This document shows, one piece after another, positions 3,639 to 24,971 of a stretch of DNA of 64,000 nt; the first letter of the stretch is position 1; every line of letters starts with the position of its first letter. The notes under the pieces are model-generated. The model saw only the letters and a list, made by a program, of their open reading frames with translations. It did no database searches and had not been told where the DNA came from. Source of the stretch: Paramagnetospirillum caucaseum (lineage in GTDB: Bacteria > Pseudomonadota > Alphaproteobacteria > Rhodospirillales > Magnetospirillaceae); assembly GCF_000342045.1 (NCBI RefSeq), contig NZ_AONQ01000004.1, positions 62,001 to 126,000 of the forward strand. The letters are read 5' to 3'. A program made the position numbers and the translations under genes.

Positions 3639-4304
3639 ATGATGACCCGGGTCGCCGCCCTGATCTTCGACGTGGACGGTACCCTGGCCGAGACCGAGGA
3701 GGCGCATCGCTACGCCTTCAACCGCGCCTTTTCGGAAACCGGGCTCAGCTGGACCTGGAACCAGGCCATCTACCGCCATCTGCTGAAGGTGTCGGGCGGC
3801 AAGGAGCGCATCCTGGCCTTCGCCCCCGACGCCTCGCCCGAACTGGTGGCCGCGCTGCACGGGCGCAAGAACCAGATCTACACCAAGCTGGTGGCCAGCG
3901 GGCAGGTGTCGTTCCGCCCCGGCGTGGAATCCCTGATCTCGTCGGCGCGGGCCCAGGGGCTGAAGCTGGCCATCGCCACCACGGCGGCGCGGGTCAACGT
4001 CGAGGCGCTGCTGGGCGCGCGCAAGGCCTTCTTCCACACCATCGCCTGCGCCGAGGACGTGCGGAAGAAGAAGCCCGACCCGGAGGTCTACGCCCTGGTG
4101 CTGAAGCGCCTGGATCTGCCGGCCGACAAATGCCTTGTGCTCGAGGATTCCTCCAACGGGCTGGCGGCCGCCACCTCCATCGGCCTCAAGGTGGTGATTA
4201 CCCCCAGCCTTTACACCAGGGGACAGAATTTCGACGGCGCCCTGGCGGTGCTGCCCGATCTGGGCGGCGTCAGCCTAGCCCGGCTGATCGATCTCAAGGG
4301 ATGA
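3639..4304 (+). CDS. HAD-superfamily phosphatase, CbbY/phosphoglycolate phosphatase-like
   Basis: The 221-residue protein carries all HAD motifs. Motif I is FDVDGTLAETEE, with the nucleophile Asp and the acid/base Asp. Motif II is the Thr in AIATTAARVN. The motif III lysine is in KKKPDPEVY, and motif IV is LEDSSNGLAAA. The helical cap (about residues 18-85, GLSWTWN...LLKVSGGKERI) is the CbbY type. Such enzymes dephosphorylate sugar phosphates or xylulose bisphosphate. No RuBisCO genes are in view, so the substrate is open. The start is ATG 3639, two bases after the lipoprotein stop; an ATG at 3642 is equally possible. Its stop overlaps the next start (ATGA at 4301). Confidence 0.88.
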   Translation: MMTRVAALIFDVDGTLAETEEAHRYAFNRAFSETGLSWTWNQAIYRHLLKVSGGKERILAFAPDASPELVAALHGRKNQIYTKLVASGQVSFRPGVESLISSARAQGLKLAIATTAARVNVEALLGARKAFFHTIACAEDVRKKKPDPEVYALVLKRLDLPADKCLVLEDSSNGLAAATSIGLKVVITPSLYTRGQNFDGALAVLPDLGGVSLARLIDLKG

Positions 4305-4888
4305 GCGGGGGGCTGGACGCACTGGCGGCCCGCATGCGGGCCTGCCGGGTGTGTGAGGCCCATCTGCCGCTCGGCCCCAATCCGGTGTTCCGTCTGTCGG
4401 CCACCGCCCGGCTGCTGATCATCGGTCAGGCGCCGGGCACCAGGGTGCACGCGACGGGTATTCCCTGGAACGACCGCTCCGGCGATCGGCTGCGTCAGTG
4501 GCTGGACCTGGGCCGCGACGGCTTCTACAACGCCGCGCGCATCGCCATCCTGCCCACCGGCCTGTGCTATCCCGGCCGCCTGCCCCGCGGCGGCGACCGG
4601 CCGCCCCGGCCGGAATGCGCGCCGCTGTGGCACCAGGCGGTGCTGGAGCATCTGCCCGATCTCGGCCTCGTCCTGCTGGTGGGCTCCCACGCCCAGGCCC
4701 ATCACCTGGGGGCGCGGCGAAAGGCCACCCTGACCGCGACCGTGGCGGCGTGGCGCGACTATCTGCCGCGCTTCCTGGTGCTGCCCCATCCCTCGTGGCG
4801 GACCATCGCCTGGGAGGCGAAGAACCCCTGGTTCGCCGCCGAATTGCTGCCCGAGGCGCGGCGGCTGGTGGCGGGGATCGCCGGCTGA
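4301..4888 (+). CDS. Fe-S uracil-DNA glycosylase-superfamily protein
   Basis: A 195-residue member of the uracil-DNA glycosylase superfamily. It has the N-terminal pair CRVC and, later, two cysteines separated by 16 residues (LCYP...PEC). This four-Cys arrangement coordinates a 4Fe-4S cluster in family 4/5-like enzymes. Motif A reads IIGQAPGTRVHATGIPW and the C-terminal motif is LPHPSWR. Asp follows Trp-Asn in GIPWND rather than the usual GxPFxGxAG, so activity on uracil cannot be taken for granted. It would act on DNA in the cytosol. The start at 4301 overlaps the stop of the HAD gene. Nothing is recognisable in the 179 bases that follow, apart from a presumed promoter for the gene at 5068. 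Confidence 0.82.
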   Translation: MSGGLDALAARMRACRVCEAHLPLGPNPVFRLSATARLLIIGQAPGTRVHATGIPWNDRSGDRLRQWLDLGRDGFYNAARIAILPTGLCYPGRLPRGGDRPPRPECAPLWHQAVLEHLPDLGLVLLVGSHAQAHHLGARRKATLTATVAAWRDYLPRFLVLPHPSWRTIAWEAKNPWFAAELLPEARRLVAGIAG

Positions 4889-5067: not shown

Positions 5068-6552
5068 ATGGCCGAATCCATCGACATCCTGTTCATCAAT
5101 CCCGGCGACCGCAAGCAGATCTACCAGGACCTGGGCGACGAGTTCTGCGGCATCGAGCCGCCGGTCTTCGCCGGTCTGTTCGCCACCTATGCCCGCCAGA
5201 AGGGCGCGTCGGTGGCCATCTACGACACGCCGGCCATGATGGTTCCCGCCGCCGAGGCGGCGCGGGTGGCGGTGGAGGAGTACAGCCCCAAGCTGGTGGT
5301 GATTCCGGTCTACGGCTTCCAGCCGTCGGCCTCGACCCAGAACATGGGTTCGGCGGGCAAGATCGCCCGGCTGATCAAGGAGGCCAAGGGCGACGTCAAG
5401 ATCCTGATGACCGGCACCCACCCGGCGGCGCTGCCCCGGCGCACCATGCAGGACGAGGCGGTGGATTTCGTCTGCGACCTGGAAGGCCCGGTGACCATCT
5501 GGAAGACGCTGCAGGCGCTGAAGGCCGGGCAGGACGGCTTCGCCAACGTGCCCAGCCTGTGGTGGCGCGATGCCGAGGGCCGCATCCAGGCCCCCGCCGA
5601 GCGCGAGCCGCTGGTCACCGACCTGGACGGCGAGATGCCCGGCATCGCCTGGGATCTGCTGCCCATGGACCGCTACCGCGCCCATAACTGGCACTGCTTC
5701 ACCCACATCAACGAGCGCCAGCCCTACGCCTCCATGCATACATCGCTGGGCTGCCCGTATCATTGCAGCTTCTGCTGCATCAACGCCCCGTTCGGCAAGC
5801 CCAGCTACCGGCTGTGGAGCCCGCAGGTGGTGGTGTCCGAGATCGATTTCCTGGTGGAGCGCTACGGCGTCAAGAACATCAAGTTCGTTGACGAGATGTT
5901 CGTGCTCAACAAGCGCCATGTGGCGGGCATCTGCGACCTGCTGGCGGCGCGGGACTACGAGGTCAACATCTGGGCCTATGGCCGCGTCGACACCATGCAC
6001 GACGAGTTGCTCGACAAGCTGAAGGCGGGCGGCGTCAACTGGATCTGCCTCGGCATCGAGAGCGCCAGCGATTATGTGCGCGACGGCGCGGAAAAGGTGT
6101 TCAGCAACCAGGACGTCATCGACACGGTGCGCCGCATCCAGTCGGCGGGCATCCACATCATCGGCAATTACGTCTTCGGCCTGCCCGACGACACCATGGG
6201 CCGCATGCAGCAGACCCTGGACCTCGCCCAGGAGCTGAACTGCGAATTCGCCAATTTCTACTCGGCCATGGCCTATCCCGGCTCCAAGCTCTACGACATG
6301 GCGGTGGAGAAGGGGCTGGAACTGCCGCACGAATGGCATCATTTCTCCCAGCACGGCTACGAGACCCTGCCGCTGGCCAACGACGCGCTCAGCGCCGCCG
6401 ATATCCTGGGCTTCCGCGACAAGGCCTGGACGGACTATTTCACCAACCCGAAATACCTGGACATGGTGCGCGACGTGTTCGGCCAGGAGGTGGTCGATCA
6501 TGTGGGCCGCATGACCCAGGTGCCGATGAAGCGCAAGATCCTGGGGCAGTGA
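5068..6552 (+). CDS. B12-binding-type radical SAM enzyme
   Basis: A 494-residue protein. Residues 1-150 form a Rossmann-like cobalamin-binding-type domain (IDILFINPG...), without an obvious DxHxxG loop. Residues 220-440 form the radical SAM barrel with the cluster motif C229-x3-C233-x2-C236 (GCPYHCSFC). Residue runs such as KFVDEMFVLN and GIESASDYVRDG are typical of the barrel, and GNYVFGLPDD matches the class E-type group that includes methyltransferases and cyclisation enzymes. It opens a run of nucleotide-sugar genes with zero or tiny gaps, so a role in modifying an activated or lipid-linked sugar (C-methylation, deoxygenation or epimerisation) is likely but inferred. Its stop overlaps the Nudix start by one base. 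Confidence 0.85.
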   Translation: MAESIDILFINPGDRKQIYQDLGDEFCGIEPPVFAGLFATYARQKGASVAIYDTPAMMVPAAEAARVAVEEYSPKLVVIPVYGFQPSASTQNMGSAGKIARLIKEAKGDVKILMTGTHPAALPRRTMQDEAVDFVCDLEGPVTIWKTLQALKAGQDGFANVPSLWWRDAEGRIQAPAEREPLVTDLDGEMPGIAWDLLPMDRYRAHNWHCFTHINERQPYASMHTSLGCPYHCSFCCINAPFGKPSYRLWSPQVVVSEIDFLVERYGVKNIKFVDEMFVLNKRHVAGICDLLAARDYEVNIWAYGRVDTMHDELLDKLKAGGVNWICLGIESASDYVRDGAEKVFSNQDVIDTVRRIQSAGIHIIGNYVFGLPDDTMGRMQQTLDLAQELNCEFANFYSAMAYPGSKLYDMAVEKGLELPHEWHHFSQHGYETLPLANDALSAADILGFRDKAWTDYFTNPKYLDMVRDVFGQEVVDHVGRMTQVPMKRKILGQ

Positions 6553-7154
6553 TGACGCCTCCCAAGCCGCCGGCCTTCCGGGTGGCGTTCGCCACGCCGT
6601 TCTTCTCCATCGAGGAGACGGCGGCGGAACGGCCGGGCGAGCTTCCCCATTACCGTCTGGTGGCGTCCGACGGGGCCATCTGCCTGCCCTTCACGCCCCA
6701 GGGCGACGTGCTGCTGGTGCGCCAGTACCGCCATTGCCTGGGCCGCCAGACCCTGGAGGTGCCGTCGGGTGGGGTGGACGGGGGCGAGGGCTGCGCGGCG
6801 GCGGCGGTGCGCGAGATCGCCGAGGAGACCGCCCACGCGGTGTCCGGCGTGCGGCTGCTGGGCATCGCCCGGCCGCAGCTCAACCGCAACACCCAGCGGG
6901 AATTCTTCATGCTGGCCTTCGACGCGACCCCCATTCCCGGCGCGGCGCCCGAGGCGGGCATCGAACTGGTGCGCATGACGCGGGGGGAACTGGCCCGGGC
7001 CATCCGCACCGGCGAACTGGAGCAGCCGGCGGCCATCGGCTTCATCGGGCTGGCATCGGTCAAGCTGGGCCTCGACATCCTGTCGGCGCCCATGGACGAG
7101 ATCAAGGCGAGGGCGGAGACCCTGCCCAAGGGAGAGAACGAACATGAAGGTTGA
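6552..7154 (+). CDS. Nudix hydrolase, ADP-ribose pyrophosphatase-like
   Basis: A 200-residue Nudix protein; the start ATG 6552 shares one base with the preceding stop. The Nudix helix is clear: GGVDGGEGCAAAAVREIAEE, giving the GX5EX7REUXEE core. The consensus glycine after EE-x is replaced (EETAH), a small departure from the box. The upstream beta-strands (GDVLLVRQYRHCLGRQTLEVPSG) match the ADP-ribose/nucleotide-sugar pyrophosphatase subgroup. It likely hydrolyses an NDP-sugar or ADP-ribose with Mg2+ in the cytosol. In this cluster it could recycle misformed NDP-sugars. Its end overlaps the next gene by 11 bases. Confidence 0.87.
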   Translation: MTPPKPPAFRVAFATPFFSIEETAAERPGELPHYRLVASDGAICLPFTPQGDVLLVRQYRHCLGRQTLEVPSGGVDGGEGCAAAAVREIAEETAHAVSGVRLLGIARPQLNRNTQREFFMLAFDATPIPGAAPEAGIELVRMTRGELARAIRTGELEQPAAIGFIGLASVKLGLDILSAPMDEIKARAETLPKGENEHEG

Positions 7155-7659
7155 GGTACAGAAGACCGCCCTGGACGGCGTGCTGCTGGTCACGCCCCCC
7201 ACCATTTTCGAGGATTTCCGGGGCCATTACATCGAGACCTATAACCGCGAGCTCTATCACGCCGCAGGCATCGACGTGGACTTCGTCCAGGACGACATCT
7301 CGGTCTCGCAGCACAACGTGCTGCGCGGCATCCACGGCGACGGCGGCACCTGGAAGCTGGTGTCGTGCCTGCACGGCCGCTTCTATCTGGTGGTGGTCAA
7401 CAACGATCCCGCCTCGCCCCAGTACCGCCAGTGGACCAGCTTCACCCTGTCGGACACCAACCGGCAGCAGGTGCTGATCCCGCCGAAATTCGGCAACGGC
7501 CATCTGGTCCTCTCCGACTGGGCCATCTTTCACTACAAGCAGAACAGCCAGTACGACCGCGCCTCCCAGTTCACCATCCTGTGGAACGACCCGGCCTACG
7601 GCCTGTGGTGGCCGCGCACCGATCCCATCCTGTCGCGCCGCGACCAGGGGCTGGACTGA
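7144..7659 (+). CDS. dTDP-4-dehydrorhamnose 3,5-epimerase-like (RmlC-type cupin)
   Basis: A 171-residue cupin with the RmlC layout: GVLLVTPPTIFEDFRGHYIETYN at the N-terminus, then ISVSQHNVLRGIHGD, the conserved VLRGxH segment that contributes the catalytic histidine, then GRFYLVVVNND and the substrate-binding run IPPKFGNGHLVLSD. It has GNGHLVLSD where rhamnose-pathway enzymes usually have GFAHGFxVLS. The substrate is therefore probably a different 4-keto sugar. Preceded by a good Shine-Dalgarno (gggagagaac). Likely works on the product of the dehydratase encoded next (7692). Confidence 0.85.
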   Translation: MKVEVQKTALDGVLLVTPPTIFEDFRGHYIETYNRELYHAAGIDVDFVQDDISVSQHNVLRGIHGDGGTWKLVSCLHGRFYLVVVNNDPASPQYRQWTSFTLSDTNRQQVLIPPKFGNGHLVLSDWAIFHYKQNSQYDRASQFTILWNDPAYGLWWPRTDPILSRRDQGLD

Positions 7660-7691
7660 CCGCCCGGCCATCAAGGGAAGGGGATAAGGAC

Positions 7692-8705
7692 ATGGCGAAG
7701 AAGCGCGCGCTGATCACCGGGGTCACCGGCATGGTGGGCTCCCACATGGTGGACTTCCTGCTGGAACACACCGACTGGGATATCTGGGGGGCCTGCCGCT
7801 GGCGCAGCCCGCTGGACAATCTGCGGCACCTGATGGGGCGCGTCAACGCGCGTGACCGCCTGTTCCTCACCGATTTCGAGCTGCGCGACACCATTTCCAT
7901 GATCCACATGGTCGACGAGGTGAAGCCCGATTACGTCTTCCACCTGGCCGCCCAGTCCTATCCCAAGACCAGTTTCACCGCGCCGCTGGACACCCTCGAC
8001 ACCAACATCATGGGCACCGCCCGCCTGCTGGAGGCGCTGCGGCCCCTCGGCGCCGCGCCGGTGATCCATGTCTGCGCCTCGTCCGAGGTGTTCGGCCGGG
8101 TGCCCGCCGAGAAGCTGCCCATCGACGAGGAATGCACCTTCCACCCGGCCTCGCCCTACGCCATCTCCAAGGTGGGCACCGATCTGGTGGGGCGCTATTA
8201 CGCCGAGGCCTACGGCATGCGGGTGATGACCACCCGCATGTTCACCCATACCGGTCCCCGGCGCGGCGACGTCTTCGCCGAATCCACCTTCGCCAAGCAG
8301 ATCGCCATGATCGAGGCCGGCATCCTTCCGCCGGTGGTCAAGACCGGCAATCTCAAGTCCATGCGCACCTGGGCCGACGTGCGCGACGCGGTGCGGGCCT
8401 ATTACCTGCTGGTCACCGTCGATCCCCAGCCCGGCGCCTATTACAACATCGGCGGCACCTTCTCCTGCACGGTGGAGGACATGCTGAACCACCTGCTGTC
8501 GCTGTCCACCCGCAAGGACATCACGGTGGAGACCGATCCCGGAAGGGTGCGGCCCATCGACGCCGATCTCCAGGTGCCGAACACCGGCAAGTTCCGGGCC
8601 CATACCGGCTGGGAGCCGGTGATCCCCTTCGAGACGACCATGGCCGATCTGCTGGAATACTGGCGCGACGCCATCCGGTCCGGCCGCACCTATCCCAACC
8701 GATGA
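7692..8705 (+). CDS. NAD-dependent sugar epimerase/dehydratase, GDP-mannose 4,6-dehydratase-like
   Basis: A 337-residue extended short-chain dehydrogenase. The cofactor loop is TGVTGMVGSHMVD (GxxGxxG). The catalytic triad region has SSEVFG and the YxxxK motif in SPYAISKVGTDLVG; ARNIH-like HTGPRRGD and a C-terminal substrate loop follow. The overall spacing matches GDP-mannose 4,6-dehydratases, and it makes a 4-keto-6-deoxy sugar nucleotide in that family. Start is ATG 7692 after the Shine-Dalgarno aaggggataagg; longer readings run back through the epimerase gene. Its stop overlaps the nucleotidyltransferase start. With the RmlC-like protein it gives two consecutive steps of a deoxysugar pathway. 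Confidence 0.88.
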   Translation: MAKKRALITGVTGMVGSHMVDFLLEHTDWDIWGACRWRSPLDNLRHLMGRVNARDRLFLTDFELRDTISMIHMVDEVKPDYVFHLAAQSYPKTSFTAPLDTLDTNIMGTARLLEALRPLGAAPVIHVCASSEVFGRVPAEKLPIDEECTFHPASPYAISKVGTDLVGRYYAEAYGMRVMTTRMFTHTGPRRGDVFAESTFAKQIAMIEAGILPPVVKTGNLKSMRTWADVRDAVRAYYLLVTVDPQPGAYYNIGGTFSCTVEDMLNHLLSLSTRKDITVETDPGRVRPIDADLQVPNTGKFRAHTGWEPVIPFETTMADLLEYWRDAIRSGRTYPNR

Positions 8706-9421
8706 GCATGGAGGACCTTTCCGCCATCGTGCTGGCCGGGGGGCGGGGCACCCGCATCGCCGGGCTCTATCCCGACATCCCCAAGCCGATGATCCCCGCC
8801 GCCGGCCAGCCCTTCCTCCATTGGGTGACCGAGTGGCTGCTGCGGCGCGGCATCACCGACATGGTGCTGTCGGTGGGGCACATGGCCGGGATCGTCGAGG
8901 ACTGGGCGGCGGCCCGCCAGGCCGCTCTGGCCGGGCGGGCCCGCCTGTCCTGCGTGCGCGAGGTCCGGCCGCTGGGCACCGGCGGCGCGGTGATCGCCTG
9001 CCTGGATTTCTGCCGCGATTGGGTGCTGGTGATGAACGGCGATTCCCTGCTGGATGCCGGGATCGGCCCGCTGTTCCACCGGGTGCGCGACGGCGGGCTG
9101 GACGGGGCGGTGATCGGAGTCGAGGTGGCCGACGCCGCGCGTTTCGGCTCGCTGGAGGTGGGGGGCGACGGCCTGCTGCGCGGCTTCACCGAGAAGCGGC
9201 CGGGTGCCGGACTGATCAATGGTGGCGTCTATATCTTCCGCAAGTCTATTTTTGATAAATTTGCAAGAAACAAAATGATGAGCATGGAGACTGATATATT
9301 TCCGGCGCTGCTGGCGGATGGTGCTTCCATGGCTGTCGATGTGTGTTCTGGATCATTTCTTGATATAGGAACGCCGGACTCTGTTGTTCTTGCTGATGAT
9401 TTTGTTGCTGCTTTATTCTGA
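8702..9421 (+). CDS. Sugar-1-phosphate nucleotidyltransferase, HddC-like
   Basis: A 239-residue NTP-transferase. The nucleotide loop is VLAGGRGTRIAGLYPDIPKPMIP, containing the GGxGTR and the PKPM lysine. The metal-binding Asp is in VMNGDS. Length and the closing GTPDS element match the D-glycero-manno-heptose 1-phosphate guanylyltransferase group (HddC). With the GHMP kinase at 9533 it would activate a sugar by 1-phosphorylation and nucleotidyl transfer. The last 60 codons (from about 9241) are strikingly AT-rich compared with the first 180, with unusual codons such as TTT, AAA and ATA, yet the frame and family motifs continue intact. This suggests a mosaic gene with a recombined 3' end. Confidence 0.85.
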   Translation: MSMEDLSAIVLAGGRGTRIAGLYPDIPKPMIPAAGQPFLHWVTEWLLRRGITDMVLSVGHMAGIVEDWAAARQAALAGRARLSCVREVRPLGTGGAVIACLDFCRDWVLVMNGDSLLDAGIGPLFHRVRDGGLDGAVIGVEVADAARFGSLEVGGDGLLRGFTEKRPGAGLINGGVYIFRKSIFDKFARNKMMSMETDIFPALLADGASMAVDVCSGSFLDIGTPDSVVLADDFVAALF

Positions 9422-9480
9422 TCCGGTAATGGTTTATTAACGCTCTCATTTTATCATTTTACCCTGCATCTTGATGCTTG
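9241..9480. other. Low-GC patch across the end of the nucleotidyltransferase gene
   Basis: My count is 98 G/C in 240 bases (about 41 percent); the first 60 bases have only 17 G/C. The sequence on both sides is visibly GC-rich with GC-ending codons. The patch begins inside the coding sequence of the gene at 8702 and ends in the gap before the GHMP kinase. It includes no recognisable insertion sequence, direct repeat or RNA gene. The abrupt edge at about 9241 looks like a recombination junction. Confidence 0.75.
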
Positions 9481-9532
9481 GCGTCCCCGGCACGGAGCCG
9501 ATGCGGATTCGGGCGGGGTGGGGTTGCGATCG

Positions 9533-10528
9533 ATGTCTTTCGTGGTGACGAAAACGCCGTTCCGGGTATCGTTCTTCGGGGGAGGAACCGATTACCCGGC
9601 CTGGTATCTGGCCAATGGCGGCGCGGTATTGTCCTCGGCCATCCGCCAGTACTGCTACATCACCTGCCGCTATTTCCCCCCCTATTTCCCCCATATGCAC
9701 CGGATCGTCTGGTCCCATATCGAGGTGGTGCAGTCCATCGGCGAGATTCTGCATCCGGCGGTGCGCGCCGCCCTGCCGGTCTACGGCTTCGACGACCGCC
9801 GGGGGGTGGAGATCCACCACCAGGGCGACCTGCCGGCCCGCACCGGCATCGGCTCCAGCTCCTCTTTCGCGGTGGGACTGATCCAGGCCCTGAAGGCCAT
9901 GCGGGGCGAGGCCATCGGCAAGCACGAACTGGCCCTGGCCGCCATCGACCTGGAGCGCAACGTCCTGGGCGAGGCCGGCGGCTACCAGGACCAGGTGGCG
10001 GCGGCCTATGGCGGGCTCAACGTCATCCGCTTCAACACCGACGGGTCCATCCGGGTGGAGCCGCTGGGGCTCTCGGCGGAACGCCAGGCGGCGCTGGAAG
10101 GCCGCCTGATGCTGTTCTACACCGGCATGAACCGCTTTTCCGCCGAACTGGCCAGGAAGATCATCGGCAACATGGAGGCCAAGAACGACCGGCTGCGCCG
10201 CATGCATGCCATGGTCGACGAGGCGGCGGCCATCCTGCGCCACGGCGACCTGGACGATTTCGGCCGCATGCTGGACGAGACCTGGCGCCTGAAACGCGGG
10301 CTGGAAAGCGGCATCACCACCTCGGTGGTGGACGAGGTCTATGAAAAGGCCATGGCGGCCGGCGCCCTGGGCGGCAAGCTGCTGGGGGCCGGCGGGGCCG
10401 GCTTCATGGTGTTCTACGTGCCCGAGGGCGCCGCCGATGCGGTGCGCCGCGCCCTGGGGTCGCTGATCCACGTGCCGTTCGAGATCGACGAGGAAGGGGC
10501 CCGCGCCATCGAGGATGGGCGGGCCTAG
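9533..10528 (+). CDS. GHMP-family sugar kinase, HddA-like
   Basis: A 331-residue kinase. I start at ATG 9533 (MSFVVTKTPFRVSFFGGGTDYP), the conserved N-terminus of the family; an in-frame GTG at 9518 only adds five residues. Motif 2, the ATP phosphate loop, is PARTGIGSSSSFAVGL. Motif 3 is GGKLLGAGGAGFMVFY. The N-terminal FGGGTDYP is characteristic of D-glycero-D-manno-heptose 7-phosphate 1-kinase-like enzymes. It would phosphorylate C1 of a sugar (phosphate), feeding the nucleotidyltransferase encoded upstream. It follows a low-GC gap of 111 bases. Family is firm; heptose as substrate is inferred. Confidence 0.87.
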   Translation: MSFVVTKTPFRVSFFGGGTDYPAWYLANGGAVLSSAIRQYCYITCRYFPPYFPHMHRIVWSHIEVVQSIGEILHPAVRAALPVYGFDDRRGVEIHHQGDLPARTGIGSSSSFAVGLIQALKAMRGEAIGKHELALAAIDLERNVLGEAGGYQDQVAAAYGGLNVIRFNTDGSIRVEPLGLSAERQAALEGRLMLFYTGMNRFSAELARKIIGNMEAKNDRLRRMHAMVDEAAAILRHGDLDDFGRMLDETWRLKRGLESGITTSVVDEVYEKAMAAGALGGKLLGAGGAGFMVFYVPEGAADAVRRALGSLIHVPFEIDEEGARAIEDGRA

Positions 10529-10616
10529 TGCCCTGCCCCCGGATTCACGCCACGGATTTCGGGGATGAACAGGCCGCTGACGTATGAAGTGTGCGCCGAG
10601 GAGGACTGGAGCCCCG

Positions 10617-12824
10617 ATGAGTGCCGTCAAGAGGATTCCCTTTCCGCTCCGCCTGCCCAATGACCGCCTCGAGGCGGTTCATCCGTCGCTGGATGCCGCC
10701 TTCGCCGCCCACGACTACGTCTATGTCGCCCGCTTCGGGGCCGGGCGGCCCGAGCTGCGCGGCTGCGCGCTGATCCTGCTGGGCAACCGGCTGGGGGGCG
10801 AAAAGGTCCTGGACCGCCACGGGGTGGACAGCGCCTTCGTCTGCCTGTACCGCGCCTATGGCGCCTGGCGCGACGGCGACGAGGCCGCCGCCAAGGGCTG
10901 GATCGCCCAGGGGCTGGCGCTGGGCGGCGAGGACGGGCGGCTCGAGCGCCTGGAGGCCCTGATCGCCCGCAAGTCCTTCCGCGTGGTCTTCCATTCCGAT
11001 TTCGGCCGCCCCGAACGGCTGAGCGGCTTCTTCGAGGTGCCGGGCGTCGAGTTGATCCTCACCTCGCACATGCTGGGCGACGAGGCCACCTCGCTACCCA
11101 TGGGCGCCCCCCTGTCGAGCAAGGTGCCGCCCGGCCCGCCGGTGGATCTGGTGCTGATCGACGACTTCAAGATGATGCCGGTCGGGCTGCGCGAGTTGGG
11201 CGCGCCGGTGGTGGTCAATCCCCATGACCACGAGTGGTATTACGAGATGCTCGACGAGGTGATGCCCGAGGTGGACCTGGTGGTCAATCTCAGCACCTGG
11301 GAAGAGATCGAGCTGAACCGGGCCTTCGGCGTCCAGGGCACCACCTTCTTCTATCCCCTGTCCCTGAAGGTGCCCCAGGTGAGCGGCCTGAAGACGGCCT
11401 TCGACGACAAGCGCGAGCGCAAGTGCGATATCGTCTTCACCGGCGGCGTGACCCACGACTTCTATCGCGACAAGCGCCAGCGCATCGTCTCGCTGGCCCG
11501 GCTCGATCCCAAGTTCGACGTGCGGGTGGTCGAGGGCTACCTGGATTACGGCCATTTCTACGGCCTGCTGTCCAATTCCCGCTTCACCATCAACAGCGTG
11601 CGCGCCACCAATTCGCTGAGCATCAGGCCGTTCGAATCCCTGGCCCACGGCGCCTTGCAGCTGGTCGAGGAGGAAAGCGGCGTCCCCTACATCTTCAGCG
11701 AGGATTTCGCCTGCTTCCCCCGCTACCGGCTGGAGCACTCGGTCGCTGACATCGAGGCCCATCTCGGCAATTACGACGCCATCCTGGCGGAGTTCCGGCC
11801 CCAGACCGAACGGATGGAAGCCGAACTGAACGACCTGATGCCCGATGCCGAGAACCTGCGGGCCATGCGCTTCCTGCGCCATCTGTTCTTCATGACCGAG
11901 GTGGAGATGGGCGGCATCCGCAAGGCCGACCAGCCGCTGGCCGCGCCGGTCCGGCGCGAATGGGTGGGCATCACCGAACCCTGGCTGCTGTCCCAGCGCC
12001 CCGATCAGGCCCGGCGGGTGTTCGACCAGACCCGGTCGCCGTTCTGGGTGCGCCGGGCCATCGTGTCCACCGTGGCCTTCGCCAATGACTGGATCGGCCA
12101 CCTCTACGACGCCATCGTCCAGGGACAGGCGGAATTTCCCGAGTCCCTGGGACTGGAATACACCCGCGCCCTGTGCCTGCGCCTGGGGGGCTTCACCGAG
12201 GTCGCCGAGCACGCCTTCAAGCGGGTGGCGGACGGCGGCCTGACGCTGCGCCCGAACGAGAGCTTTCCCCGCCAGATGGACCGCCTCAACGGCTTCTACT
12301 GGCTGGCCGACGCCAAGGTCCGCGACCGTTGCCCCGATTTGGCGCAACTGGTGCCGGAGGAGGCGGTCTGGCGCAGCTATGCGCTGAACCATCGGGCCGA
12401 AATGGCCATCGAGCGCGCCCGCACGCTGTCGGGCAACGACGCCCTGGTGGAATACGCCCGCGCCGCCGCCCTGGCCGACCGCTCGCTGACCCTGTTCGCC
12501 GTCAACGAAAGCGCCCAGCGGCTGTATGTCCGCGCCGCCTTCGGCCTGGCCGACAACGGCCTGGAAGAATGGTTCGAGGTCTTCCGCGACAATCTGGCCG
12601 CCGCCATCGACAACGACTACACCGCGCTCCACGACCTGTCGCCCCTGGCCGTCCATCTGCTGATGGAGCGCGGCCGGGTGGCCGAGGCCCAGGTGGTGAT
12701 CGACCGGCTGGGCATGTACCTCAAGCGCACCGCCGTGAACGCCGAACTGTGTCCCGAGGCGACGGAACTGGCCCGGCGCTATGGATTGCCCTTGCGCGGC
12801 GTGGACCTCGCCGCCGCCGCCTGA
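10617..12824 (+). CDS. Large CgeB-like glycosyltransferase with helical C-terminal region
   Basis: A 735-residue protein; start ATG 10617 after the Shine-Dalgarno-like ctggag. Residues about 125-430 resemble the CgeB/GT-B group: an N-terminal nucleotide-fold half (FRVVFHSDFGRPERL), then CDIVFTGGVTHDFYRDKRQ, SNSRFTINSVRATNSLSIRPFESLAHGAL (the late donor-binding E of IRPFE) and a C-terminal closing helix. Residues about 440-735 are helical and rich in Ala and Leu, suggesting a repeat or scaffold domain I cannot name. It likely transfers a sugar made by the preceding genes to a surface or flagellar acceptor. The acceptor is unknown. Confidence 0.72.
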   Translation: MSAVKRIPFPLRLPNDRLEAVHPSLDAAFAAHDYVYVARFGAGRPELRGCALILLGNRLGGEKVLDRHGVDSAFVCLYRAYGAWRDGDEAAAKGWIAQGLALGGEDGRLERLEALIARKSFRVVFHSDFGRPERLSGFFEVPGVELILTSHMLGDEATSLPMGAPLSSKVPPGPPVDLVLIDDFKMMPVGLRELGAPVVVNPHDHEWYYEMLDEVMPEVDLVVNLSTWEEIELNRAFGVQGTTFFYPLSLKVPQVSGLKTAFDDKRERKCDIVFTGGVTHDFYRDKRQRIVSLARLDPKFDVRVVEGYLDYGHFYGLLSNSRFTINSVRATNSLSIRPFESLAHGALQLVEEESGVPYIFSEDFACFPRYRLEHSVADIEAHLGNYDAILAEFRPQTERMEAELNDLMPDAENLRAMRFLRHLFFMTEVEMGGIRKADQPLAAPVRREWVGITEPWLLSQRPDQARRVFDQTRSPFWVRRAIVSTVAFANDWIGHLYDAIVQGQAEFPESLGLEYTRALCLRLGGFTEVAEHAFKRVADGGLTLRPNESFPRQMDRLNGFYWLADAKVRDRCPDLAQLVPEEAVWRSYALNHRAEMAIERARTLSGNDALVEYARAAALADRSLTLFAVNESAQRLYVRAAFGLADNGLEEWFEVFRDNLAAAIDNDYTALHDLSPLAVHLLMERGRVAEAQVVIDRLGMYLKRTAVNAELCPEATELARRYGLPLRGVDLAAAA

Positions 12825-12879
12825 GTTGTACCGCCACCACCCGGCCGCCAGAAACGCGGCGGACGCCAAAGGAGAAGCC

Positions 12880-13812
12880 ATGAGTCCCCAGACCCTTCGC
12901 TACGGAACCGCCGAGATCGCCTCCCATTTCGGCGTGGCGCCGTCCGAACTGCCGCCGCCGGTGGTGAAGCTGGTCGAGGCCGCCGACTTCTCCCACCACC
13001 GTTTCGAGGGCGAGGACCGCGACCGCCTGATCCTGCGCATCCTGCGCGAGCTGGAGCGGCCGCTGGAGGCGGCGGGCAAGCACCGCCACGCCCGTTGGGA
13101 AGCCGGCTGGAGCGAGAATCTCGAGGATTTCCGCAAGTCGAATTTCGACCTTTCCGCCCTGGTGCCGCGCTTCGTGCGCCGGGGCGAGCCGGTGCGCATG
13201 CTGGGCGACTACATCCAGCCCCATTCCCGCGAGTTCGACGTGGACTACATCCGCGTCCTGGTGACCTTCATCCTCAGCTATTACTTCGCCGACGCCAGCG
13301 AGATCCACGAATTCGGCTGCGGCACCGCCCAGAACCTGGTGCCCGCCGCCCGGCTGTTTCCCGGCCGGCCGCTGTTCGGCTACGACTGGGCCTCGGCCAG
13401 CCGCGAGATCATCGCCGAGATGGCCCGGCACCACGGCTTCAACATCCAGGGCCGGGTGCTGGACATGTTCCGGCCCGGCGACGAGGTGAGGCTGGGCGAG
13501 GGTGCCGGCGTGCTCACCGTCGGCTCCCTGGAGCAACTGGGTACCGAGTTCAACGCCTTCCTCGACTTCGTGCTGGCTCAGAAGCCGCGCATCGTCGCCA
13601 ACCTGGATTGCTTCAACGAGCTGCACGATCCCGAGCGCCTGCCCGACGTGCTGGCCGAGCGCTACGACCGCAAGCGCAATTACCTGTACGGCTGGGTGAC
13701 GCGGCTGCGCGCGCTCGAGGCCGAGGGACGGGTTGAAATCCTCGGTTTCCGGCGCACCTATGGAAGTCTGTTCCATGACGGCCACAGCTTCGTGGTGTGG
13801 AGGCCGAAATGA
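12880..13812 (+). CDS. SAM-dependent methyltransferase, probable sugar O-methyltransferase
   Basis: A 310-residue protein starting at ATG 12880 after a strong Shine-Dalgarno (aaaggagaagcc). The SAM loop is EIHEFGCGTAQNLVPAARLFPG, with a following acidic strand end (FGYDWASAS). The N-terminal 130 residues are helical and could bind the acceptor (MLGDYIQPHSREFDVDYIR). This architecture matches proteins annotated as putative sugar O-methyltransferases in polysaccharide clusters. The stop overlaps the start of the second radical SAM gene (ATGA at 13809), so both are probably made together and modify the same sugar. Substrate is inferred from context only. Confidence 0.78.
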   Translation: MSPQTLRYGTAEIASHFGVAPSELPPPVVKLVEAADFSHHRFEGEDRDRLILRILRELERPLEAAGKHRHARWEAGWSENLEDFRKSNFDLSALVPRFVRRGEPVRMLGDYIQPHSREFDVDYIRVLVTFILSYYFADASEIHEFGCGTAQNLVPAARLFPGRPLFGYDWASASREIIAEMARHHGFNIQGRVLDMFRPGDEVRLGEGAGVLTVGSLEQLGTEFNAFLDFVLAQKPRIVANLDCFNELHDPERLPDVLAERYDRKRNYLYGWVTRLRALEAEGRVEILGFRRTYGSLFHDGHSFVVWRPK

Positions 13813-15767
13813 GCGCCAAGCGGCGGGTTTATTTCAACGAATTCAACCTATTGATGGGCAATACCACCTATCTGCCCCTGGTGTCGGGCCTGCTCAAGGC
13901 CTATGCCCTGACCCGGCCGGCCCTGGCCGATGCCTATGAATTCATGCCCTTCAACTTCCATATCGAGGCTCCCGGCCCCATCGTCGACCGGCATGACGCC
14001 CCCTTCGTCGCCGCCTTCTCCCTGTCGCTGTGGAACGAGCAGCTCAGCCTGGAGGTGGCGCGGCGGGTCAAGGAGCGCTTCCCCGCCTGCACCATCGTCA
14101 TGGGCGGCGCCCAGGTGCCCCACCGGCCCGAGGCCTTCTTCGCCGCCAACCCCTTCCTCGACATCGCGGTGCGCGGCGAGGGCGAGGAGGCGTTTTCCGA
14201 CATCCTGGAACGTCTGGCCGAGGGGCGGCGCGACATGGACGGGCTGGGCGGCACCGCCTGGCGGGCGCCCGACGGCGAGATTCGCATCGACCATTCCGAG
14301 CGGCCCTTCCAGCGCGACCTGGATTCCTACCCCTCGCCCTATCTCACCGGCCTGTTCGACGATCTGTTCGTCACTCATCCCGACAAGAATTTCCAGGCGA
14401 TCATCGAGACCAACCGCGGCTGCCCCTTCCACTGCACCTTCTGCTACTGGGGCAAGGGCGGCCTGAGCCGCAAGTACCGCTACACCAGTCTGGAACGGAC
14501 CTTCGGCGAGATCGAGTGGATGGCCAGGCACCGTATCCGCTACCTGTTCAACGCCGATTCCAATTTCGGCATGCACCGCCGCGACATCGAGATCGCCCAG
14601 AAGATCGTCGAGACCAAGCAGGCCATGGGCTTCCCCGAGGCCTTCCGCTCCTGCTACGGCAAGAACACCGACGAGAAGATCCTCGAGATCGGCCGCCTGC
14701 TTCACCGGCACGGGCTGGAGAAGGGCATCACCATCAGCTACCAGAGCATCTCGCCCGAGGTGCAGAAGAACATCAAGCGCGACAACATCAAGCTGTCGGT
14801 GGCCGAGGGCCTGCAGCGCGCCTTCAACGAGGCGGGGGTGCCGGTCTATACCGAACTGATCCTGGCCCTGCCGGGCGAGACGGCGGACAGCTGGGTCAAG
14901 GGTATCGACACGGTGCTGGAAGCCGGGCTGAAGAACCAGCTGTACCTCTATATCTGCCAGGTGCTGCCCAACACCGAACTGGCCGATCCCGACTACATGG
15001 CCCAATTCGGCATCCGCACCCACCGGGTCAAGGCGTTGCCGGTGCACGGCAGCGTGACCGATCCCGACTGGGTCACCGAGTACGAGGACATCCTGATCGC
15101 CACCGACACCCTGTCGGTGGAGGAATGGCGGCGCATGCTGGCCTTCTCGTGGGCGGTGATGCTGCTGTTCAGCCTGAAGGCCGGGTTCTTCGTCATGACC
15201 TGGCTGTCGGCCCGGCTGGGCGTTCCCTATTCCGCCTTCCCCCTGTGGCTGGCCGACCGGCGCTACGACGCCGGGCGCACCCCGCTGTTCGCCGACATCG
15301 TCGCCGGCTTCTGGGCCAAGACCGATGACCTGCTGGCCGGCGGCGGACGCGGCACCGAGGTGGAGGGCACCGGCGGCATCTACTGGGAGGAGGAAGAGGC
15401 CGCATGGCTGAAGCTGGCCAAGGACCCGGCCCGCGCCTTCGCCGAGATGGGGGATCTGCTGGCCGAGTTCCTGGCCGGGCGGGGCGTGGATTTCGACGCC
15501 GAGGAACTGGCCGAGGTGGTGCGCTACCAGAGTCTGGCGGTGCCGACCCTCAACATCGCGGCGGCGGCGGGCGCCCATGACTTCGTCTTCAACCTGCCGC
15601 AATGGTTCGAACGCTTCTTCGACGCCGACCGCCCCGACCTGACCCGCGGCGGCGGCCGCCTCCGGGTCGATCCGGTGGACTATGCCGGCGACCTGCCCCG
15701 CCTCGCCCGCGAGGTGCTGCTGTGGGGCCGCAAGAGCGGCCGCCTGCTCAACCAGACGGGGACGTGA
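13809..15767 (+). CDS. B12-binding-type radical SAM enzyme, second of the cluster
   Basis: A 652-residue protein. Residues 1-180 form the cobalamin-binding-type Rossmann domain (TIVMGGAQVPHRPEAFF, then VRGEGEEAFSDIL, the VxGEGE signature of this superfamily). Residues 195-430 hold the radical SAM barrel, with C205-x3-C209-x2-C212 (GCPFHCTFC) and ALPGETADSW. The long C-terminal region (about 430-652) is helical, unlike the shorter protein at 5068, and may carry substrate specificity. Its start overlaps the methyltransferase stop. It is the last gene of the plus-strand sugar run, followed by a strong terminator. Reaction unknown: C-methylation or rearrangement of a sugar are both possible. Confidence 0.85.
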   Translation: MSAKRRVYFNEFNLLMGNTTYLPLVSGLLKAYALTRPALADAYEFMPFNFHIEAPGPIVDRHDAPFVAAFSLSLWNEQLSLEVARRVKERFPACTIVMGGAQVPHRPEAFFAANPFLDIAVRGEGEEAFSDILERLAEGRRDMDGLGGTAWRAPDGEIRIDHSERPFQRDLDSYPSPYLTGLFDDLFVTHPDKNFQAIIETNRGCPFHCTFCYWGKGGLSRKYRYTSLERTFGEIEWMARHRIRYLFNADSNFGMHRRDIEIAQKIVETKQAMGFPEAFRSCYGKNTDEKILEIGRLLHRHGLEKGITISYQSISPEVQKNIKRDNIKLSVAEGLQRAFNEAGVPVYTELILALPGETADSWVKGIDTVLEAGLKNQLYLYICQVLPNTELADPDYMAQFGIRTHRVKALPVHGSVTDPDWVTEYEDILIATDTLSVEEWRRMLAFSWAVMLLFSLKAGFFVMTWLSARLGVPYSAFPLWLADRRYDAGRTPLFADIVAGFWAKTDDLLAGGGRGTEVEGTGGIYWEEEEAAWLKLAKDPARAFAEMGDLLAEFLAGRGVDFDAEELAEVVRYQSLAVPTLNIAAAAGAHDFVFNLPQWFERFFDADRPDLTRGGGRLRVDPVDYAGDLPRLAREVLLWGRKSGRLLNQTGT

Positions 15768-15780
15768 TCCCATAAACGAA

Positions 15781-15815
15781 GGGCCCGCCGGATCGCTCCG
15801 GCGGGCCCTTTTTCT
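15781..15815. terminator. Strong intrinsic terminator between convergent genes
   Basis: A perfect 12-bp GC-rich stem (15781-15792 with 15797-15808), a 4-base loop tcgc and a run of five T on the plus strand right after the stem. It ends the sugar cluster on the plus strand. On the minus strand a weaker T-rich tail follows, so it may also serve the transketolase operon. Confidence 0.93.
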
Positions 15816-15826
15816 TTCCCGTGGGC

Positions 15827-16774
15827 TCAGCCCTTGGCGAAGCCGATCAGGGAGTCGATGATCTGCTCGGCGCCGATGCCGTACCAGTTGTGCAGGGCGT
15901 CGCGGCCGCCATAGGTGTAGCAGTAGCCCTTCTCCACCGGCAGGCCCAGACGCTTCAGCGGCAGGGTCGAGCCGGCGTCGGCCAGAACCTCGGCCACGGC
16001 GCTGCCCATGCCGCCCGGCAGGAAGTGCTCCTCCAGGGTGGCGACCTTCTTGGCGCCCTTGACGGCGTTCAGCAGGGCGGGGGCGTTGACCGGCAGGCGG
16101 TAGAGATCGACCACGCCGGCGTCGATACCCTTCTTGGACAGGATTTCGGCGGTCTCCAGCGCGGCATGGGTCATGATGCCGGTGCCCACCAGCATGATGT
16201 CCTTGCCGGGCCGCAGCACGTCGAGGCCGGGGCGGAAGTCGTGGCCGGTCTTGTACAGGTCGGGCAGGGTCTGGCGGTCGAGGCGGACGTAGTTGATCCG
16301 CCGCTCCTTGATGGAGCGCTCGGCCACGTCGGCGGCCATCACGCTGTCCGAGACGCTGTCGATCTCGATGGTCGGGAAGGCCCGCATCACGGCGATGTCT
16401 TCCAGCATGTGATGGGTGGGGCCGGAATCCTGGTAGCCGAAGCCGGCGCCGACGCCGACCAGGGTCAGCGGGATCTTCATCATGCAGTTGTTGACGCGGA
16501 CCTGTTCCAGGCAGCGCAGCGTGATGAAGGGGGCGATGGCGTAGGCGAACACCTTCTTGCCCGCCATGGCGAGGCCGGAGCCCACCACGATGGCGTTCTG
16601 CTCGGCGATGCCGGCATTGATGAACTGGTTGGGCAGGTCCAGGCGGATCTTGTCGAGCGCCGGAGCGCCCATATCCGCCGAGATGATGATCACGTCACGG
16701 TCCTGGCGGGCGATCTCGTAGACCCGGGTCCAGAAGGCGTCGCGCTGGGGAAGGTTCGAAGTCACGGCGCTCAT
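15827..16774 (-). CDS. Transketolase, C-terminal (pyrimidine-binding plus C-terminal) subunit
   Basis: A 315-residue protein equal to the second half of a transketolase: the Pyr domain with FINAGIAEQNAIVVGSGLA, where the Glu contacts the ThDP aminopyrimidine ring, then the substrate motif GPTHHMLEDIAVMRAFP, then the C-terminal domain (VGTGIMTHAALETAEIL). Together with the protein at 16771 it makes a split transketolase, transferring a two-carbon ketol unit. The two genes overlap by 4 bases (ATGA), a translationally coupled pair. Split forms often occur in secondary or polysaccharide pathways rather than the central pentose phosphate pathway. Location beside the sugar cluster supports a specialised role. 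Confidence 0.9.
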   Translation of the reverse strand: MSAVTSNLPQRDAFWTRVYEIARQDRDVIIISADMGAPALDKIRLDLPNQFINAGIAEQNAIVVGSGLAMAGKKVFAYAIAPFITLRCLEQVRVNNCMMKIPLTLVGVGAGFGYQDSGPTHHMLEDIAVMRAFPTIEIDSVSDSVMAADVAERSIKERRINYVRLDRQTLPDLYKTGHDFRPGLDVLRPGKDIMLVGTGIMTHAALETAEILSKKGIDAGVVDLYRLPVNAPALLNAVKGAKKVATLEEHFLPGGMGSAVAEVLADAGSTLPLKRLGLPVEKGYCYTYGGRDALHNWYGIGAEQIIDSLIGFAKG

Positions 16775-17625
16775 CGCAGGAAGCTCCTTTCCAGGTCGGC
16801 CCTTGCCTTTTCAACCATGGCCCCGGTGGGGGCGGCGCCGTGCCAGATGGGTTCGTTGGCCATGCATTCGATGCCCTGGCCCTTGACGGTGTCGGCGATG
16901 ATCACCAGCGGCTTGGTCGAGCGGCGCGAACGGGCATAGCCCAGCACGTCCATCAGCGCGTCGGTGTCGTGGCCGTTGATGCGCTCCACCGCGAAGCCGA
17001 AGGCGGCCCACTTGTCGGCCAGGGGCTCGAGGCGGATCAGGTTCTCGGTGAAGTCGGTGGTGCACAGGTAGTTGCGGTCGACGATGGTCACCAGGTTGTT
17101 CAACTGGTGATGGCCGACGAACATGGCGGTTTCCCAGATGGAGCCCTCGTAGAGCTCGCCGTCGCCCAGCAGGGTGACCACCAGGTTGTTCTTGCGGTCC
17201 ATGCGGTTGGCCAGCGCCAGGCCGGCGGCGGAGCCGAAGCCCAGGCCCAGCGAGCCGGCGGTGGTCTCGACACCCGGCACGGTGTGCTGCAGGTGGACGC
17301 CGAAGATGCCCTCGGCCTGGGCGAATTTCTCCAGTTCCTTGGGGTCGAAGAAGCCCATGTCGGCCAGGATGGCGTAGAGCGCCGGGCTGGCCTGGCCCTT
17401 GGACAGGATGAAGCGGTCGCGGCCTTCCCATTGCGGGTTCTGCGGATCGACCCGCAGGATGCCACCGTGATAGAGGGCGACCAGGATCTCGATGCAGGAC
17501 ATGCACGAGGTCACATGACCGGTCCGGGCCTTGATGCAGGTCTCCAGGGTCATTCGCCTCAGTTTCTCGGATTTCTCCACAAGGTCGGGAGCGCGGCTAT
17601 TGGAGCCGGCGGTGGTCTTGGACAT
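16771..17625 (-). CDS. Transketolase, N-terminal (thiamine diphosphate-binding) subunit
   Basis: A 284-residue protein with the transketolase PP domain: RDRFILSKGQASPALYAIL, the GSLGLGFGSAAGLA stretch, and the ThDP/Mg motif GDGELYEGSIWETAMF with the Asn in IVDRN. It lacks the Pyr and C-terminal domains, which are encoded by the next gene. The N-terminus (MSKTTAGSNSRAPDLVEK) is a short extension. Translation starts from ATG 17625 after a strong aaggag. The 5' leader has three tandem stem-loops (17673-17728). Forms an alpha2beta2-type enzyme with the product of 15827. Confidence 0.9.
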   Translation of the reverse strand: MSKTTAGSNSRAPDLVEKSEKLRRMTLETCIKARTGHVTSCMSCIEILVALYHGGILRVDPQNPQWEGRDRFILSKGQASPALYAILADMGFFDPKELEKFAQAEGIFGVHLQHTVPGVETTAGSLGLGFGSAAGLALANRMDRKNNLVVTLLGDGELYEGSIWETAMFVGHHQLNNLVTIVDRNYLCTTDFTENLIRLEPLADKWAAFGFAVERINGHDTDALMDVLGYARSRRSTKPLVIIADTVKGQGIECMANEPIWHGAAPTGAMVEKARADLERSFLR

Positions 17626-17787: not shown

Positions 17788-18999
17788 TCACACCACGCCG
17801 GCCGCCTTGAGCCGCGCCATCTCGGCGGCGTCCAGGCCCAGCAGATCGGCCAGCACCTCGGCGGTGTCGGCGCCCAGCAGGGGGGGGGCGCGGCCGGAGA
17901 CAGCCTGGGCGCCGTCGAGGCGGATGGGATTGGCCACCAGATCGATGCCGCCGGCCAGGGGATGGTCCAGCCGGGTCCTGAGGCCGCGGTGGATCACCTG
18001 GGGATCGGCGAACACGCCGGCGAGGTCGTTGATGGGGCCGCAGGGCACGCCGGCGGTTTCCAGCGCGGCGATCCACTCGGCCGAGGACCGCGCCGCCAGC
18101 AGGGCTTCGAGCGTCGGCACCAGCTCGGCGCGGTTCCGGACCCGCTCCACATTGGTGGCGTAGCGGGGATTGCTCCCCAGGTCGGGCCGCCCGGCGGTCT
18201 CGCAGAAACGGCGGAACTGGCCGTCATTGCCCACCGCCAGGATGATGTGGCCGTCGGCGGTGGCGAAGGCCTGATAGGGGACGATGTTGGGGTGGGCGTT
18301 GCCCAGGCGCCGCGGCACCGTGCCGCCCACCAGGTAATTGGCCGCCTGATTGGCCAGCACCGCCACCTGGACGTCGAGCAGCGCCAGATCGATGTGGCCG
18401 CCTTCGCCGGTGCGGTCGCGCCGGGCCAGGGCGGCCAGCACCGCGAAGCCGGCATACATGCCGGTGAAGATGTCGGTCAGCGCCACGCCCACCTTCATGG
18501 GCTGGCCCTCCGCCTCGCCGGTCAGGCTCATCAGCCCGCCCATGCCCTGGATCAGGAAGTCGTAGCCGGCACGGCCCGCATAGGGGCCGTCCTGGCCGAA
18601 GCCGGTGATGGAGCAATAGACCAGATCGGGCTTCACCGCCTTCAAGGCCGGGTAGTCGAGGCCGTACTTGGCCAGCCCGCCCACCTTGAAGTTTTCCAGC
18701 ACCACGTCCGACCGGGCGGCCAGCCGGCGCACCAGCGCCTGGCCCTCGGGACAGGTGAAGTCGATGCTCACCGAGCGCTTGCCCCGGTTGGCCGACAGGA
18801 AATAGGCGGCCTCGCCGGTGTCGTTGCCCTCGCCGTCCTTGAGGAAGGGCGGCCCCCAGCCCCGCGTGTCGTCACCCTCGCCCGGGCGCTCCACCTTGAT
18901 CACCTCGGCCCCCATGTCGGCCAGCAACTGGCTGGCCCAGGGCCCGGCCAGCACCCGGCTGAGGTCGAGAACGCGAAGATGCGAAAGCGGTCCGGTCAT
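17788..18999 (-). CDS. Family III CoA transferase (CaiB/BaiF type)
   Basis: A 403-residue CoA transferase. It opens LSHLRVLDLSRVLAGPWASQLLADMGAEVIKVE, the family N-terminus. SANRGKRSVSIDF and the region YDFLIQGMGGLMSLTG follow, where Asp is the catalytic residue that forms the acyl-CoA anhydride. Length matches the family. It moves CoA between carboxylic acids in the cytosol; the acid is unknown. The start is only 9 bases beyond the stop of the alpha-E gene on the same strand, so it is probably part of the ATP-grasp/alpha-E transcript. About 160 bases separate it from the transketolase genes, which have their own promoter-like region. Confidence 0.9.
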   Translation of the reverse strand: MTGPLSHLRVLDLSRVLAGPWASQLLADMGAEVIKVERPGEGDDTRGWGPPFLKDGEGNDTGEAAYFLSANRGKRSVSIDFTCPEGQALVRRLAARSDVVLENFKVGGLAKYGLDYPALKAVKPDLVYCSITGFGQDGPYAGRAGYDFLIQGMGGLMSLTGEAEGQPMKVGVALTDIFTGMYAGFAVLAALARRDRTGEGGHIDLALLDVQVAVLANQAANYLVGGTVPRRLGNAHPNIVPYQAFATADGHIILAVGNDGQFRRFCETAGRPDLGSNPRYATNVERVRNRAELVPTLEALLAARSSAEWIAALETAGVPCGPINDLAGVFADPQVIHRGLRTRLDHPLAGGIDLVANPIRLDGAQAVSGRAPPLLGADTAEVLADLLGLDAAEMARLKAAGVV

Positions 19000-19965: not shown

Positions 19966-19966
19966 G

Positions 19967-24952: not shown

Positions 24953-24971
24953 GCGCTAACACCGTCGCGAC

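Follow-up and report, generated by a model that had tools for sequence, protein, structure and literature searches.

A Paramagnetospirillum caucaseum gene island with two cobalamin-type radical SAM proteins and a split transketolase: a candidate route to a branched, C-methylated, heptose-derived surface sugar

The stretch analyzed here (the window) comprises 64,000 nucleotides of Paramagnetospirillum caucaseum DNA, corresponding to C4:62001-126000 (contig NZ_AONQ01000004.1) of a 4.86 Mb genome. Its positions 5068-17625 hold an island of eleven genes, nine on the + strand and two, encoding the halves of a split transketolase, on the - strand. We consider the chances about even that this island makes a guanosine diphosphate (GDP)-heptose-derived sugar which carries a two-carbon (C2) branch, is radically modified and C-methylated, and is placed on a surface acceptor, all of the reactions and their order being ones that we infer. 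The genes, their nearest relatives, their conserved motifs and their recurring gene company were seen directly, and because other genomes show the same gene partnerships again, the island is more than a chance assembly.

In the proposed route, sedoheptulose-7-phosphate would be isomerized by GmhA encoded outside the island, and the kinase, a phosphatase of the GmhB kind and the nucleotidyltransferase (NTase) would then lead to GDP-D-glycero-manno-heptose. The dehydratase would produce the 4-keto-6-deoxy form, which the RmlC-like enzyme would epimerize, and the split transketolase would move a two-carbon ketol unit onto a carbonyl group of the nucleotide sugar, giving a branched higher-carbon sugar. 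Of the two radical S-adenosylmethionine (SAM) proteins, rSAM1 would act on the sugar by radical chemistry, most probably taking a hydroxyl off a diol in the manner of AprD4, and the TokK-like rSAM2 would C-methylate an unactivated carbon, possibly in several rounds. O-methylation of the sugar may be the task of the methyltransferase-like protein (MT), and a CgeB-like enzyme would transfer the residue to the surface acceptor.

Cobalamin radical methylation is the likely chemistry of rSAM2, because the protein resembles TokK and CysS, keeps the radical SAM cysteines and has a tryptophan at the position lying under the cobalt. In a PDB search, a profile of ten relatives matched TokK at 2.9e-117 (396.1 bits) and CysS at 4.6e-75 (256.6 bits), and its positions 7-611 of 654 aligned with TokK 12-622, covering the B12, radical and C-terminal domains; the window protein is 31% identical to TokK over 593 positions. 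TokK and CysS are iterative methylases in which Trp76 (TokK) or Trp75 (CysS) sits beneath the cobalt (PMC13331322, PMC12846815). In an alignment of 158 sequences (rSAM2 of the window and 157 relatives from 93 loci), tryptophan occupies this position in 153, including the window protein, with glycine in 2 and a gap in 3, and all three cysteines of the CxxxCxxC motif are present in 156/158; C205, C209 and C212 are invariant in the ten-relative alignment. Six loci that duplicate named contigs were excluded from the counts. Domain order, CxxxCxxC motif and the tryptophan beneath the cobalt are common to rSAM2 and TokK/CysS. The B12-binding domain scores 31.9 bits, just below the Pfam cut-off of 32.1, and rSAM2 stays below the curated NCBIfam cut-off for KedN5 (252.6 vs 700 bits). 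In a FastTree phylogeny rooted on CysS and built without the L042 sequence, TokK falls outside the 155-sequence clade containing rSAM2 (support 1.0), and rSAM2 is therefore a relative of TokK that is not among its nearest kin. A possible substrate is suggested by gene company only: whereas TokK and CysS act on carbapenam or pantetheinylated substrates in antibiotic pathways (PMC12846815), rSAM2 is accompanied by GDP-heptose-type genes and, in Clostridia, occurs in tandem arrays. The sequence-only reading of this DNA had suggested a C-methylated or rearranged sugar, and because rSAM2 is TokK-like, a sugar modified at carbon, by C-methylation or otherwise, is still the best reading.

The sugar-nucleotide enzymes point to a heptose. 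The PDB chain closest to the dehydratase is 7us5, a GDP-D-glycero-D-manno-heptose 4,6-dehydratase (347.8 bits), followed by 2pk3 (189.2 bits), with GDP-mannose dehydratases at 135.4 bits or less. The kinase is closest to 3k85, a D-glycero-D-manno-heptose 1-phosphate kinase (3e-40; fucokinase, 2.5e-19), and the NTase to 6jq8 (1.5e-30) and 5xhw (6.5e-30), both named "putative 6-deoxy-D-mannoheptose pathway protein"; the earlier HddA/HddC-like assignment of these two proteins is thereby borne out. With GDP-heptose enzymes as the nearest solved relatives of kinase, NTase and dehydratase, GDP-4-keto-6-deoxy-heptose is the likely precursor of the island's sugar. For the RmlC-like epimerase, the matches to 7ang (1.1e-33) and to the GDP-D-glycero-4-keto-D-lyxo-heptose-3,5-epimerase 8db5 (1.4e-33) are equally good and do not separate dTDP- from GDP-heptose-type relatives. 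Kinase, NTase and RmlC-like protein score below the curated NCBIfam cut-offs for HddA heptose-7-phosphate kinase (133.1 vs 600 bits), HddC guanylyltransferase (116.5 vs 300 bits) and deoxythymidine diphosphate (dTDP)-4-dehydrorhamnose 3,5-epimerase (144 vs 155.75 bits), respectively, and because none of the sugar enzymes reaches a listed NCBIfam cut-off, we describe them as working like their named relatives and not as being them. Elsewhere in the genome are two GmhA matches, one over the cut-off (210.9 bits) and one just under it (198.1 bits), and one match over the cut-off to a phosphatase family which we take to include GmhB; HldE, read by eye, is encoded on the island's own contig. The island thus shares kinase, NTase and dehydratase, as nearest solved relatives, with the GDP-6-deoxy-heptose pathways (HddA, HddC, 7us5-type dehydratase), the solved proteins of which presumably come from Yersinia, Burkholderia and Campylobacter, but it adds two radical SAM proteins and a split transketolase, and no reductase is seen in it.

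This gene company extends to distant bacteria. The rSAM2 alignment was scanned against one genome per species (84,980 species). This confirmed 163 stretches, of which the best 80 were kept, representing 78 loci, so that the following counts describe this kept list. Neighbors were counted from stop-to-stop frames and homology, because a gene caller trained on the GC-rich window fails on low-GC loci. Kinase and NTase genes occur together in 27/78 loci, and at least one of them lies directly beside rSAM2 in 18/78; a gene for a thiamine diphosphate (ThDP) enzyme is found in 13/78, and three or more rSAM2-like genes in 21/78. The two radical SAM genes and the HddA/HddC-like pair, which the sequence-only reading had named together, form a quartet (rSAM1 at 35% identity or more, rSAM2, kinase, NTase) in nine of the 78 loci (L062, L070, L079, L080, L081, L083, L084, L086 and L090), the titles of which name Rhodospirillales/Rhodospirillaceae, Betaproteobacteria, Candidatus Albibeggiatoa, Planctomycetota, Verrucomicrobiia and Omnitrophota. 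Since L080 and L081 match each other in gene order and identities, these nine amount to fewer independent cases. A ThDP enzyme accompanies the quartet in 8/9 loci, for L070 as seen in L041, a wider copy of it; the remaining locus, L083, is a contig of 5.3 kb. The ThDP enzyme is a split transketolase in L062, L080 and L081, an E1-like pair in L041/L070, L079, L086 and L090, and both in L084; Pfam supports the E1-like proteins tested, namely both subunits in L079, L084, L086 and L090 and the beta subunit in L041.

Among loci assigned by title to Clostridia and related Bacillota, 20/35 contain three or more rSAM2-like genes and 15/35 a kinase. In gut and rumen Clostridia (L098-L118, L120-L128, L130-L132, L134, L137), TokK-like radical SAM genes form tandem arrays, partly beside genes for an HddA-like kinase, a cupin and a nucleotidyltransferase; five array proteins tested scored 228-254 bits for KedN5. 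Homologs of rSAM2 with 37-39% identity are also encoded on the Pelagibacter-labelled contigs L094, L095 and L096, for which mis-binning is possible; a B12-type radical SAM protein in SAR11 would, we assume, be unexpected.

ThDP enzymes are known to make branched sugars, with YerE acting in yersiniose formation and E1-like pairs in that of octoses. The island has in common with these systems a ThDP enzyme in a sugar-nucleotide locus, and it differs from the YerE type in that a split transketolase takes the place of such an enzyme and a heptose that of a hexose. RfbH is not among the eleven genes; RfbH-like proteins occur in many relatives, two of which, when tested, scored 251.6 and 278.5 vs 423 bits. 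A canonical transketolase is encoded elsewhere in the island's genome (831.1 bits), which makes a house-keeping role for the split pair, TktN and TktC, unlikely. When 26 TktC sequences (that of the window and 25 others) were aligned to this canonical enzyme, His455 was replaced by glycine in 26/26 and Ser378 was kept in 0/26, with one arginine retained in 26/26 and another in 19/26; His455, Ser378 and the two arginines are residues that we take to form the phosphate site. These changes, together with the E1-like pairs in other quartet loci, favor C2 transfer to a sugar nucleotide as the putative role of the pair over the supply of sedoheptulose-7-phosphate. The same genome encodes a second split transketolase in another radical-SAM-bearing region (G000:C16:50000-69999, L172; tktN 48%, tktC 35%).

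The role of rSAM1 is proposed with low confidence. AprD4, a radical SAM 1,2-diol dehydratase, is nearest to it both by profile, as the first solved chain in the PDB (7.4e-21, 77.8 bits; next chain 9.3e-14, 54.4 bits), and by fold, the predicted model (11 sequences, mean pLDDT 83.7) aligning best with AprD4 (Z 30.0, 413 aligned, root-mean-square deviation 2.9). C229, C233 and C236 are invariant in the alignments, and the score against the curated AprD4 family lies below its NCBIfam cut-off (79.8 vs 500 bits). rSAM1 differs from AprD4 in having a transketolase as its partner; the partner reductase of AprD4 is AprD3. The substrate of AprD4 is paromamine, an aminoglycoside (title of PDB 6fd2).

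The glycosyltransferase reaches 29.3 bits for Pfam Glyco_trans_1_2 (cut-off 25) and has no PDB match at E 0.01, its "CgeB-like" label being our assumption; TPR repeats occur in the glycosyltransferases of two relatives' loci (L042, L146), and none was found in that of the window (Pfam, E 0.001). MT stays below the Pfam cut-offs (Methyltransf_25, E 0.0082; for the homolog in L046, 1.8e-5, 25.8 vs 27 bits), and its AlphaFold model (four sequences, pLDDT 89.9) matches SAM-dependent methyltransferases in Foldseek (best E 2.3e-8, TM-scores of ~0.4-0.5). Its EFGCG motif is invariant in 4/4 sequences, and by fold we take it to belong to class I. Of the acceptors that the sequence-only reading named (LPS, capsule, flagellin), flagellin was considered and found unsupported, a single Flagellin_N match lying on another contig (C19).

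Within the order, 199 genomes were searched, with matches to rSAM2 in 25 (E 1e-60), kinase in 66 (1e-50), rSAM1 in 36 (1e-60) and tktN in 80 (1e-40). A kinase gene lies within 15 kb of rSAM2 at 14/27 places, and rSAM1 is accompanied by the kinase at 25/40 places and by tktN at 24/40, the tktN proximity counts using the best 90 tktN places. At rSAM1 places of ~65% identity or more, tktN is found within 3 kb in 14/20. In a further set of 20 loci, a sample picked from the rSAM1, kinase and tktN hits, rSAM1 lies directly before tktN in 10/20. The earlier suggestion that the two radical SAM proteins frame one pathway as a matched pair was rejected: they belong to different families and keep different partners, rSAM1 mainly the split transketolase and rSAM2 the kinase and NTase, and rSAM1 occurs within 15 kb of rSAM2 at 7/27 places.

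Several of these results weigh against the proposed route, among them the scarcity of rSAM1 near rSAM2 (just 7/27). The kinase-NTase pair is absent from 51/78 loci and no ThDP gene is shown in 65/78, with many contigs short in both cases; no separate 4-keto reductase was found among the eleven genes, the rest of the genome not having been searched; the NCBIfam scan of the ten island proteins other than the glycosyltransferase reached no listed family's cut-off; and the residues altered in TktC have presumed roles, in an alignment that lacked an archaeal split transketolase as control. For rSAM1, AprD4 is just 2.7 Z above the methylase MgmA (Z 27.3), with CysS (26.6), TsrM (26.3) and OxsB also within Z 26-27, and NCBIfam ranks HpnJ first (152.5 bits vs a cut-off of 577.6). 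Together with a B12-binding domain over the Pfam cut-off (40.5 vs 32.1 bits), these matches speak for rSAM1 being a cobalamin methylase or an HpnJ-like sugar rearrangement enzyme and not a diol dehydratase; as AprD4 tops both the PDB profile search and the fold comparison, we rate this alternative, which is compatible with the proposed route, somewhat below an even chance. A sugar that is C-methylated by one or both radical SAM proteins but remains an unbranched 6-deoxy-heptose, with the split transketolase boosting sedoheptulose-7-phosphate supply, appears unlikely. It agrees with the TokK-likeness of rSAM2, with the two arginine positions that TktC retains and with transketolase yielding a heptose-pathway precursor, but the genome already has a canonical transketolase, two positions of the presumed phosphate site are altered in every TktC, and other quartet loci have instead an E1-like ThDP enzyme, which should not make sedoheptulose-7-phosphate.

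The island might also be a mosaic at a glycan-gene hot-spot, its radical SAM proteins belonging to other glycan pathways and having different residues, a protein or a carrier lipid as their targets. This possibility, which we regard as improbable, rests mainly on cassette exchange at a fixed site. The left-flank gene 3639-4304 and the right flank from 19009 (19009-27533) are conserved in genomes G058, G152 and G102, and the left-flank gene 4334-4888 also in G152 and G102, yet G152 and G102 hold a different set, other glycan genes, between these flanks; G058 carries homologs of all eleven island genes. Moreover, rSAM1, MT, rSAM2, tktC and tktN are 67-97% identical in four relatives (G058, G003, G050, G063; MT in G003 as a fragment only) vs 38-57% for kinase, dehydratase and NTase in G003/G050, and in G063 the genes are spread over three contigs, with rSAM1, MT, rSAM2 and tktN/C on two and kinase and dehydratase on the third (L157, L158, L063). 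Against a mosaic stand the retention of all these genes in G063 despite their scatter and the occurrence of the quartet in distant phyla, as one compact run in four loci (L080, L081, L083, L084).

The features of the island are listed in Table 1. Every enzyme of the surface-sugar set named in the sequence-only reading is present (Pfam, NCBIfam, open reading frames), and both cobalamin-type radical SAM proteins match Pfam Radical_SAM above the cut-off; that inventory lacked the Nudix hydrolase and the split transketolase, which lie inside the same span. The sequence itself shows three stop/start overlaps, at 6552 (rSAM1/Nudix), 8702 (dehydratase/NTase) and 13809 (MT/rSAM2), and the tktC/tktN pair, overlapping each other by coordinates, is convergent to the other nine genes. 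Beyond it, the CoA-transferase-like gene 17788-18999 found no counterpart at 45% identity or above in the searched stretches. Elsewhere in the genome, G000:C37 (L055-L057) carries a glycan cluster in which nonulosonate-type genes were recognized by eye, together with one GmhA-like match and radical SAM matches at three places.

Table 1. Genes of the island, with positions in the window and the basis of each assignment
Feature	Position	Strand	Basis
rSAM1, B12-binding and radical SAM protein, 494 aa, CxxxCxxC intact	5068..6552	+	Pfam, alignments, nearest solved chain AprD4
Nudix hydrolase, start overlaps rSAM1 stop	6552..7154	+	Pfam NUDIX 5e-12
RmlC-like 3,5-epimerase	7144..7659	+	Pfam; PDB dTDP- and GDP-heptose-type relatives tie
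GDP-heptose 4,6-dehydratase-like short-chain dehydrogenase/reductase (SDR; GDP-mannose-dehydratase-like)	7692..8705	+	PDB 7us5
HddC-like sugar-1-phosphate nucleotidyltransferase (NTase)	8702..9421	+	PDB 6jq8, 5xhw
HddA-like GHMP heptose kinase	9533..10528	+	PDB 3k85
CgeB-like glycosyltransferase (Glyco_trans_1_2), 735 aa from chosen start	10617..12824 (open reading frame opens 10584)	+	Pfam
SAM-dependent methyltransferase-like protein (MT)	12880..13812	+	AlphaFold model, Foldseek
rSAM2, TokK/CysS-like cobalamin radical SAM protein, start overlaps MT stop	13809..15767	+	PDB profile search, Trp/Cys conservation
tktC, pyrimidine and C-terminal half of split transketolase	15827..16774	-	Pfam, alignments
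tktN, ThDP-binding half of split transketolase, overlaps tktC	16771..17625	-	NCBIfam transketolase model 249.4 bits

The components of the island are of known kinds, and a search of the open-access literature found no description of their combination among the papers listed. A broader proposal, which we offer as a rather doubtful one, is that the island represents a way of making branched, higher-carbon sugars that is widespread but so far undescribed, and in which GDP-4-keto-heptose would be extended by a ThDP enzyme (a split transketolase or a minimal E1-like pair), built up by radical chemistry, serially methylated in a TokK-like manner and displayed at the cell surface; the tandem sets of Clostridia (three to seven enzymes, beside heptose-kinase/NTase genes) might then be alkyl-building series acting on one glycan.

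If the chemistry proposed here is true, the TokK/CysS-type reaction extends from antibiotic pathways to bacterial surfaces, and sugars are predicted that routine glycan analysis may miss. A large rSAM2 family is found beside GDP-heptose-type genes in Alphaproteobacteria, Planctomycetota, Omnitrophota, Verrucomicrobiia and gut Clostridia. The analysis provides concrete candidate substrates for two radical enzymes and suggests what split transketolases may do beyond central metabolism.

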